Below are positions 29,912 through 48,298 of a stretch of 64,000 nucleotides of DNA, in pieces (the first letter of the stretch is position 1; every line of letters starts with the position of its first letter). Both the position numbers and the translations under genes were made by a program. The notes under the pieces are model-generated. The model was not told the DNA's origin and ran no database searches. It worked only from the letters and a program-made list of their open reading frames with translations. The DNA lies in contig NZ_JQBR01000010.1 in NCBI RefSeq assembly GCF_001438655.1, positions 1 through 64,000 on the forward strand, read 5' to 3'. Source of the stretch: Pediococcus cellicola (GTDB lineage Bacteria; Bacillota; Bacilli; Lactobacillales; Lactobacillaceae).

Positions 29912-30142
29912 AAAAAAAGACCTCGTCTTAAGGGACGAAGTCTTCGTGGTACCACCCAAATTCAAAAATGAAATTAATCCATTTTCCTTAAACTTAATAA
30001 CGGCTTTGCAACCGACCAAATCTAATTGAATTCAACTTGGCACCTCTGAGATGATATTGTTAATGGAATCTGATTAGCCTCTCACCAAATCGCTAACTCG
30101 CTGCCAGTTGACCACCCACAATGTGTTCTCTTCATAGAAATT
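29912..30142 (-). promoter_or_regulatory. T-box riboswitch leader of ileS (isoleucine)
   Basis: On the minus strand the leader carries the conserved T-box sequence GGGTGGTACCACG (29957-29945), then a terminator stem AGACTTCGTC/GACGAGGTCT and seven T (29943-29912). In the stem I region AATATCATCTC (30058-30048) offers an AUC isoleucine specifier. Uncharged tRNA-Ile would stabilise the antiterminator and switch ileS on. It begins right behind the divIVA stop; I did not fold it in full. Confidence 0.9.
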
Positions 30143-30937
30143 CTATTCACTTTTTGCGTTAACATGAAGACCAGATTCTTCTGAACTAGCCTTGGCATCA
30201 TCAGGGAAAACAACCACTGTTTCATGAGATGTCTCTTGCTCATCAGCTGAACTTGCTTGTGGCTGAACAACTGTTGTCTCAGAAGTTGCAGATTTATCAG
30301 CTTCTGAACTCGGTTCAACTGCAGGTGTAATATCTTCAGGATCCTCTTCATCATCTGAGTTTACACTTGCCGCCTTCATCTTGTCAAGTGTTCCTGTATG
30401 CAACATGGCGTCTTTCAAATCACTGACTTGCACATCCTGATCTTCTTTTAAAAGACTATCCCATTCACTACCATTAATCATCTGCAATTGTGAATCAACC
30501 AAAACTTGAACCCGTTGACGATATAGGCGCGCGTTTTTGCGCAACTCATTAGTTGCTAATATAAGTTTTTTAGCCTTTTCAGCTTGTTCATCAATAACAG
30601 CTTCAGCACTCACCCGGGCCTTTTGAATCACACCATCCGCCTGTTTTTGTGCTTCTTCAGCTGTAAGTTCAGCTTCGCGCTTGGAACTACTTTTAACCTT
30701 ATCAGCAGCATCTTGTGCAACTAAAATAGATTTGTTAAGCGCTTCTTTCATATCATCGAAGTATTCCAGCTTTGTTTCTGCATTTTCAACTTCTTTTTGT
30801 AAGGCTGAAATTTTGTCTAATGCCTGTCGATATTCAATGGCAACTTGTTGTAAAAACTCATCAACTTCATTTGGATTATATCCGCGCATTTTATTCGAAA
30901 ACTGTTTATTTTGAATATCTACCGGATCTAAAGACAT
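30143..30937 (-). CDS. divIVA: Cell-division protein DivIVA
   Basis: 264 aa. The conserved membrane-binding N-terminus (MSLDPVDIQNKQFSNKMRGYNPNEVDEFL, residues 1-29) is followed by a coiled coil to about residue 170 (with the KVKSSSKREAELTAEEAQKQADGVI part), then an acidic, Ser/Thr-rich tail that is longer than in B. subtilis. It binds negatively curved membrane at septum and poles and recruits partners. Last gene of the dcw cluster. Confidence 0.95.
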   Translation of the reverse strand: MSLDPVDIQNKQFSNKMRGYNPNEVDEFLQQVAIEYRQALDKISALQKEVENAETKLEYFDDMKEALNKSILVAQDAADKVKSSSKREAELTAEEAQKQADGVIQKARVSAEAVIDEQAEKAKKLILATNELRKNARLYRQRVQVLVDSQLQMINGSEWDSLLKEDQDVQVSDLKDAMLHTGTLDKMKAASVNSDDEEDPEDITPAVEPSSEADKSATSETTVVQPQASSADEQETSHETVVVFPDDAKASSEESGLHVNAKSE

Positions 30938-46707: not shown

Positions 46708-47220
46708 TTATTTTAATTTATCATTGTCGTAATGATGAACCCGTTGTAAATTCGGAAAATTTTGCTGTCGTAAAGCTTCATAGATTACGATTGCAACACT
46801 ATTTGACAAATTAAGTGCCCGAATATGATCATCATCTTGCGGAATACGAATTGCCTTTTCTGGGTATTGACGCATAAACGGCTCTGGTAACCCCGTTGTT
46901 TCTTTACCAAACAAAAAATAATGATCCTGTTGATCATCACGATAATCAACATCCGTATAATCATGATCAGCAAATTTAGATACTAAATACAAGTAATCTA
47001 GATTAGGTACGGAATCAATAAATGCTGGTAAATTTTCGTGATATACCAGATCTACATCCTTCCAATAGTCTAATCCGGCGCGTTTCAGATGCTTGTCGTC
47101 CACAGAAAATCCTAAAGGTTTAATTAAATGAAGTACAGTATCAGTTCCTGCACAAGTCCGTGCAATATTACCCGTATTGGCAGGCATTAACGGTTCAAAA
47201 AGTACAATGTGATTTGCCAT
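46708..47220 (-). CDS. trmL: tRNA (cytidine/uridine-34-2'-O)-methyltransferase TrmL (SPOUT family)
   Basis: 170 aa. SPOUT motifs: NTGNIARTCAG (near residues 16-26), LFGKETTGLPEPF and IRALNLSNSVAIVIYEALRQ, the knot that binds SAM. It 2'-O-methylates the wobble base of leucine tRNAs. Older annotations call this group rRNA methylase (SpoU/CspR). The ATG at 47220 is used because the family starts MANHIVLFEP. It lies behind a compact RNA element with a terminator. Confidence 0.92.
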   Translation of the reverse strand: MANHIVLFEPLMPANTGNIARTCAGTDTVLHLIKPLGFSVDDKHLKRAGLDYWKDVDLVYHENLPAFIDSVPNLDYLYLVSKFADHDYTDVDYRDDQQDHYFLFGKETTGLPEPFMRQYPEKAIRIPQDDDHIRALNLSNSVAIVIYEALRQQNFPNLQRVHHYDNDKLK

Positions 47221-47261
47221 TTTTAGTCCCACTCTCATAATTTAATAACTACTCAAAAGTA

Positions 47262-47290
47262 ATCATACTGCTATAACTTTGTCCAAACAA
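47262..47290 (-). promoter_or_regulatory. Candidate trmL promoter
   Basis: On the minus strand TTGTTT (47290-47285), 17 bases, TATGAT (47267-47262). The -35 lies directly behind the T-run of the upstream RNA terminator, so trmL can be expressed even if that terminator is efficient. Confidence 0.55.
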
Positions 47291-47398
47291 CAAAAAAAGC
47301 GTAGATACTCGGTGTAGGCACGGCGAGCTTCTACGTTAGATGAAGTACAACTTGCTAACTGCCAACGATTTCTCGATGTCACCTAGCAACCGATTTCT
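47287..47398 (-). ncRNA. Candidate small RNA or leader element between rlmA and trmL
   Basis: A ~110-base unit with its own promoter and terminator. Hairpin 1 spans about 47389-47351: TTGCTA/TAGCAA outer stem and a CGA-GAAA-TCG cap, a GNRA loop. Hairpin 2 (47336-47301) pairs CGTAGAAGCTCG with CGAGTATCTACG and is followed by seven T. Two hairpins with the second a terminator, located before an RNA methyltransferase gene in Lactobacillales, resembles the published 23S-methyl RNA motif; I cannot test this match here. No ribosome site or ORF is present in the unit. Confidence 0.65.
47292..47336 (-). terminator. Terminator hairpin closing the rlmA-trmL intergenic RNA
   Basis: CGTAGA-AGCTCG and CGAGTA-TCTACG pair at 10 of 12 positions, with GTG-CCTA-CAC closing the loop, followed by seven T on the minus strand. 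Confidence 0.88.
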
Positions 47399-47404
47399 TA
47401 TAGA

Positions 47405-47433
47405 ATGTTAACACCAAAAAGTAATTTTTGCAA
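47405..47433 (-). promoter_or_regulatory. Promoter of the rlmA-trmL intergenic RNA
   Basis: On the minus strand TTGCAA (47433-47428), exactly 17 bases, TAACAT (47410-47405). It sits between the rlmA stop (47453) and the first hairpin, so it would start an RNA near 47398. Confidence 0.65.
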
Positions 47434-47452: not shown

Positions 47453-48298
47453 TTAAGCAACCACGCCTTTTAGCAAGGTTACATCTACCGAAATATGAGT
47501 TAAACCTGAATTTTTTGCTTTTTCAATGGTGGCTTGACTAGCTCCCCAATGTAATGGTGTCATCTGAATTAAATCAGGAAGAAGTTGCGGTGAGAATTCG
47601 AAAGTATAGCGGATACGCTTGTTTTCAGAATTGGGGAAATGTTTTTCAAAGAGTTCCACAACCTGATCATTCTCATAGGCGGCATGTTGACTCGATTGAT
47701 CGTACAGCAAGTGACGTAACTCCACCAAATAATCGGCATTAGGCACTACTTTAAGCACCTGTGCACCAGGCTTTAATACGCGATGAAATTCAGCATATGC
47801 TGACGGTGAAAATAAATCTAAAATAGTTGTAAACGAATCGTTGTTAAATGGCAAGTTAGCAAGATCTGCTACGCAAAAGAAAGCAGGACTCATTAATTGC
47901 GTAGCCAAATTGATACCTGCGGTCGAAATATCAAAACCAATGGCAGTTGGCGCTTGTAAAAAAGAAAGTGTTTTTTGTAAGGGGGTTCCCTCTCCGGATC
48001 CCACATCCAGCACAATTTCATCAGCCTGCATATTTTGTGCAAAGACCTGGCAAATTGGATCGAATAACCCAGCAGTTAGAATTCGTCGTCTTGAAGCTAG
48101 CATTTCTGCATCGTATTCACTTTTCACTGCATGATTCAAAAAATAAAGGGTTCCTTTTTTGGCAATATCAATACTATGTTGATTTGGGCAACGGACACTC
48201 CCATTCTCAACCGTTACAAAACCTTGCTGACAAACAGGGCACCGAAACAAGTTTAGGTGTTGTTTAACAAACTGAATCGCTTTTTCTCTTTTTTTCAA
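47453..48298 (-). CDS. rlmA: 23S rRNA (guanine) methyltransferase RlmA
   Basis: 281 aa from a TTG start nine bases after GGGGAG. The N-terminal zinc finger (FRCPVCQQGF and VRCPNQHSID, residues ~18-42) and a Rossmann SAM domain with VLDVGSGEGTP near 96-106 define the RlmA family. Gram-positive members methylate G748 in helix 35 of 23S rRNA (RlmA-II/TlrB type), E. coli RlmA G745; the Bacillota type is assumed here. Confidence 0.9.
   Translation of the reverse strand: MKKREKAIQFVKQHLNLFRCPVCQQGFVTVENGSVRCPNQHSIDIAKKGTLYFLNHAVKSEYDAEMLASRRRILTAGLFDPICQVFAQNMQADEIVLDVGSGEGTPLQKTLSFLQAPTAIGFDISTAGINLATQLMSPAFFCVADLANLPFNNDSFTTILDLFSPSAYAEFHRVLKPGAQVLKVVPNADYLVELRHLLYDQSSQHAAYENDQVVELFEKHFPNSENKRIRYTFEFSPQLLPDLIQMTPLHWGASQATIEKAKNSGLTHISVDVTLLKGVVA

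Follow-up and report, generated by a model that had tools for sequence, protein, structure and literature searches.

A 23S-methyl family RNA of Pediococcus cellicola adjoining trmL, with comparative evidence pointing to a stand-alone small RNA

The minus-strand element located between an rlmA-like gene and trmL of Pediococcus cellicola, within the stretch of 64,000 nucleotides analysed here (the window), is a true member of the 23S-methyl RNA family (RF01065), and represents a new copy of an already described family. By cmscan, RF01065 matched positions 47392-47293 of the minus strand along model positions 1-102 with 56.7 bits against the cut-off of 50 (E = 2.9e-8 over 901 bases and 2.1e-6 over the whole window), and a single copy was identified in this genome. 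A likeness to the 23S-methyl motif had been pointed out from the sequence alone, together with the suggestion of an Rfam search, and the search confirmed it. Rfam types this family as Cis-reg; its layout is leader-like in some lineages and free-standing in Lactiplantibacillus. On balance, comparison among Lactobacillales makes it probable that the element is a stand-alone small RNA gene, the product of which would act in trans: as expected for a trans-acting small RNA, it carries its own promoter and its own terminator and is preserved where no cis target follows.

The unit begins with a promoter (47405-47433) composed of a -35 sequence TTGCAA (47433-47428) and a -10 sequence TAACAT (47410-47405) separated by a spacer of 17 nt, from which transcription is predicted to start at about 47398 and to give an RNA of about 107 nt ending near 47292; these and the following features all lie on the minus strand. 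The 5' end, AGAAATC (47392-47398), is single-stranded as judged from columns 1-6 of the alignment A2 (see below) and the identity among Lactiplantibacillus species, and is followed by hairpin 1 with its CGA-GAAA-UCG tip (47391-47350; sequence and covariation) and then by a single-stranded linker of 12 nt, recognized from invariant A2 columns, with the consensus GUACUUCAyUAA(C) (47349-47338). Hairpin 2 (47337-47298; 47292-47337 when the U-tract is included) forms an intrinsic terminator with the bulged apex CUCG-[CC]-GUG-CCUA-CAC-CGAG, in which the two-nucleotide bulge on the 5' side is placed at 47322-47323 by the alignment of 43 sequences, and a U-tract of seven residues follows the stem (47298-47292). 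A promoter scoring 9/12 or better was found 4-20 nt from the motif at 76 of the 128 loci, against 5.5% of shuffles, the -10 sequence ending 13-14 nt ahead of the motif at 69 of the 128, and TTGCA and GGTGTTA of the RNA promoter are kept across five Pediococcus. The sequence-only reading had proposed a minus-strand unit with this promoter, two hairpins and a strong terminator, and this part of it is upheld altogether by the sequence, the Rfam match, the covariation and the conserved promoter.

When folded as a single sequence, the element was no better than its shuffles (z = -1.19), and the case for structure therefore rests on comparison. In alignment A2, consisting of 28 full-length relatives of the same type, both sides were changed for 12 of the 18 pairs of hairpin 1, with 81% of cells paired, and for 7 of the 16 pairs of hairpin 2. 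None of 500 shuffles reached the covariation score, and the signal was destroyed when the pairing partners were slid; conservation and covariation of the hairpins among relatives, on which the earlier proposal had been made to depend, were thus both observed. Two positions of hairpin 1 stay mismatched, the majority of relatives having A.G and U.U there. When hairpin 2 alone was aligned over 43 diverse sequences (alignment A1, with R1 as the model of this hairpin), 12 of 17 pairs covaried and 96% were paired; R1 matched 47291-47339 of the minus strand with 55.8 bits. Conservation extends to unpaired segments, since A2 has near-invariant, unpaired letters both in the 5' end (GAAATCG) and in the linker (GUACUUCAyUAAC). 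Around the bulge of hairpin 2, the letters G-C-[C/A/U]-G-[U/A]-G ... C-[A/U]-C-C-G are invariant in the 43 sequences, the first bulge position being always C and the second C, A or U, not G; in one copy linked to a tRNA gene (L185), the middle pair of hairpin 2 is swapped to C-G. The GAAA tetraloop on hairpin 1, which had been given as a feature of the unit, is present here but only as a local trait, because GAGA is also found among Pediococcus relatives and unrelated loops in other genera.

RF01065 was present in 275 of 395 Lactobacillales genomes, and all 36 matches obtained from 399 genomes sampled across the class fell within Lactobacillales. Within Pediococcus, 8 of 12 genomes matched the Rfam model. 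Absence from the other four was rejected for three, in which R1 detected a diverged copy, while the fourth retains only a plain terminator. The bulged hairpin has been lost in one Pediococcus species (genome G004), and in one Pediococcus clade without rlmA at this position hairpin 1 is a short stem.

Downstream of the element in P. cellicola is trmL (46708-47238, minus strand, the start probably being ATG at 47220), for which the tRNA (Leu wobble) 2'-O-methyltransferase model TIGR00185 was the best match, at 184.6 bits, below the cut-off of 190.6. The upstream neighbour (47453-48298, minus strand) is an rlmA-like gene for a 23S rRNA G745/G748 methyltransferase, identified by matches of its product to PRK11088 (138.6 bits, below the cut-off of 303) and Zn_ribbon_RlmA. 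At 129 loci compared within Lactobacillales, the gene that follows is trmL in 97, queG in 16, and another gene or none in 16, and thus trmL or queG(-trmL) lies downstream in 113; the name queG rests on the sequence and not on a family search, and trmL comes after queG wherever the fetched stretch extends far enough. Both enzymes act on tRNA position 34, TrmL by 2'-O-methylation of tRNA-Leu and QueG in making queuosine. The RNA is followed in families f2, f5 and f7 by a queG-trmL operon, which encodes these two wobble-position enzymes. The gene rlmA is directly upstream in 96 of the 129 loci and is missing at many, Streptococcus included.

By its name, the 23S-methyl motif should precede a gene for a 23S rRNA methyltransferase. 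The P. cellicola element agrees with RF01065 in the full-length match above the cut-off, in the two hairpins of which the second is a terminator, in its occurrence in Lactobacillales, and in its position beside trmL and rlmA, but differs in that trmL or queG-trmL lies downstream instead of a 23S rRNA methyltransferase gene, rlmA being upstream. Since the downstream genes encode tRNA wobble-base enzymes and rlmA lies upstream and is often missing, the name '23S-methyl' is misleading. The sequence-only reading had assigned the right family, but its description as a motif upstream of rRNA methyltransferase genes does not apply to trmL, a gene for a tRNA enzyme. Two further departures from the family description are that the RNA is free-standing in Lactiplantibacillus in spite of the Cis-reg label, and that hairpin 2 recurs at the 3' ends of tRNA genes.

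The earlier proposal left the choice between a stand-alone small RNA and an attenuator of trmL. The former fits better, as Lactiplantibacillus keeps the RNA with no trmL following it, and as what is probably a promoter of trmL itself is conserved in Pediococcus. The RNA is kept in all of 21 Lactiplantibacillus species, in 19 of which it adjoins brnQ, a convergent gene on the opposite strand. Among the 21 species, the identity is 1.00 for the -35 (TTGCAT) and 0.98 for the -10 (TAAGAT), that is, hexamers 98-100% identical, and 1.00 for the 5' end, 0.97 for the linker and 0.99 for the terminator; that of the flanks is 0.52 upstream and 0.32 downstream of the conserved unit. In six Lactiplantibacillus genomes with both coordinates known, trmL is 2.4-4.2 kb from the RNA, and in five of the six (the sixth being L. 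plantarum) trmL is preceded by a promoter-like -10 and by no R1 module. Judging from this gene order, the RNA in these genomes cannot be a cis-attenuator of trmL. A gene is also inserted between the RNA and trmL in five genomes of other lineages. In Pediococcus, trmL probably has its own promoter after the terminator: the putative promoter TTGTTT-17-TATGAT (47262-47290, minus strand) lies right behind it, and in five Pediococcus species GTATGAT is identical and TTGTT is kept (TTGTTT/G). Its -35 is weak, and hence it was absent from the strict promoter scan.

The opposite reading, that transcription of trmL or queG-trmL is attenuated in cis, with a ligand or protein on hairpin 1 or on the bulged terminator setting read-through, is rather unlikely, even though several observations count for it and against a stand-alone RNA. 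These are the presence of trmL or queG(-trmL) as the next gene in 113 of the 129 loci, the Rfam type, the placement of the Streptococcus pyogenes homologue among 5' UTR RNAs, and a leader layout in 28 of 88 loci, where the trmL start codon is at most 40 nt, often 20-25 nt, past the U-tract; as there is no room for a promoter at these loci, trmL must be read through in the several lineages in which its start is 20-40 nt past the U-tract. That hairpin 1 is largely lost or shortened in some Pediococcus also weighs against the stand-alone RNA. Against attenuation stand the RNA and promoter near-invariant in Lactiplantibacillus, with trmL kilobases off behind convergent genes, the seemingly separate promoter of trmL in Pediococcus, and the result for a competing antiterminator: the one candidate pairing, in which the linker pairs with the 3' arm of hairpin 1, had 53.6% of cells paired and no two-sided change. 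This pairing fits the Enterococcus-type sequences, but was rejected for want of covariation in the Pediococcus type. The gap in energy between folds that include the terminator and folds that omit it was likewise discarded as a measure, its median of 14 kcal/mol giving no discrimination from the T-box control (14.6).

A T-box leader at 29928-30144 (minus strand; 101 bits, above the Rfam cut-off) is the only other Rfam match in the window. It resembles the 23S-methyl RNA in the leader-and-terminator layout near a translation-related gene; the latter differs in that no specifier or antiterminator was seen and no T-box match was obtained at its locus.

The two functions could also have been taken up in turn, an ancestral leader of the trmL operon having become a free small RNA where genes were inserted. 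The mixed architecture across Lactobacillales, with several decoupled lineages, agrees with such a history, but Lactiplantibacillus shows no visible relaxation of, or change in, the constraint on the sequence, which suggests an unchanged function, and we regard this alternative as improbable.

Published transcript data point both ways. The homologue of Enterococcus faecalis and E. faecium was called a small RNA and was validated by northern blot (PMC7724050), while RNA-seq of S. pyogenes gave the 5' UTR assignment above (PMC6431027). The Enterococcus RNAs, sRNA_111 and sRNA_106 (PMC7724050), belong to the same Rfam family as the P. cellicola element, but differ in the type of hairpin 1, which is UUUUUAUCAG...CUGAUAAAA in Enterococcus-like loci. 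The main texts of a Grad-seq paper (PMC10117718) and of a paper on pneumococcal cis-regulators (PMC10942264) do not mention the 23S-methyl RNA, and the papers found on the family name no binding partner and show no function for it.

The location between two RNA methyltransferase genes had led to the idea that the element mimics rRNA or tRNA structure and senses the amount of methyltransferase. This is very unlikely: against the 23S rRNA of the same genome, the longest identical stretch was 9 nt, where shuffles gave 7-11, and the longest duplex was 13, where shuffles gave 10-19, only 5 nt are common with helix 35, the target of RlmA, Streptococcus loci lack an adjacent rlmA, and nothing was found in support of sensing. 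That the element is merely the terminator of rlmA, as its position immediately downstream of rlmA in 96 of the 129 loci might suggest, is hardly credible in view of its own conserved promoter, the conserved hairpin 1 and the many loci without rlmA.

For the stand-alone small RNA, the following mode of action may be proposed. RNA polymerase would start between rlmA and the element, where the promoter lies, and the transcript of about 107 nt, as predicted from the sequence and the comparison, would be terminated at hairpin 2. The RNA would most probably work in trans, the free 5' end GAAAUCG and the linker ACUUCAyUAAC being the likely sites of contact with another RNA, and the bulged 3' hairpin a likely site for a protein, possibly the same protein that sees the hairpin at some tRNA 3' ends. 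Where trmL is directly behind the U-tract, leakage of the terminator would also feed trmL transcripts.

The hairpin 2 module does not serve as a terminator in general; it is rare and common to the RNA and certain tRNA genes, because R1 detected a single copy in most genomes and second copies come after certain tRNAs. In Lactobacillaceae, the second copies come after tRNA-Lys(CUU), as in P. cellicola itself, in which a terminator having the bulged apex of hairpin 2 lies behind tRNA-Lys(CUU) (G000:C16:209433-209483; 1403-1535 of locus L153). In genus g29 of family f2, the bulged terminator comes after tRNA-Gln(UUG) of a Glu-Thr-Tyr-Gln tRNA cluster (four loci). Weak R1 matches in four genomes of family f8 (36.9 bits), three of which sit after tRNA-Gly(UCC), have a similar stem with the bulge absent and were not counted. 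We tentatively suggest, from the sequence pattern, that the bulged hairpin (GC[C/A/U]G-N-G, loop, C-N-CCG) may be the recognition element of an undescribed Lactobacillales RNA-binding factor handling the 3' ends of selected tRNA transcripts (tRNA-Lys CUU and tRNA-Gln UUG) as well as that of the small RNA. If this is true, the factor would link the RNA adjacent to trmL or queG with tRNA supply.

To a family typed as a cis-regulator and named for an rRNA methyltransferase, the comparison adds three points: the RNA stands free in one genus or more, genes for enzymes of the tRNA wobble base adjoin it, and its 3' hairpin is met again behind tRNA genes. It thus offers another, testable identity, that of a strongly conserved free-standing small RNA. 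Lactiplantibacillus plantarum, in which the RNA and trmL are kilobases apart, provides a clean case for testing it.

Pattern matches on viral contigs were rejected as phage-borne RNAs, the good copies inspected following a tRNA-Lys-like 3' end. Five IMG/VR contigs of about 15 kb carry a tRNA-Lys-type 3' end and the bulged terminator near one end, and these copies resemble sites at which integrated elements attach.
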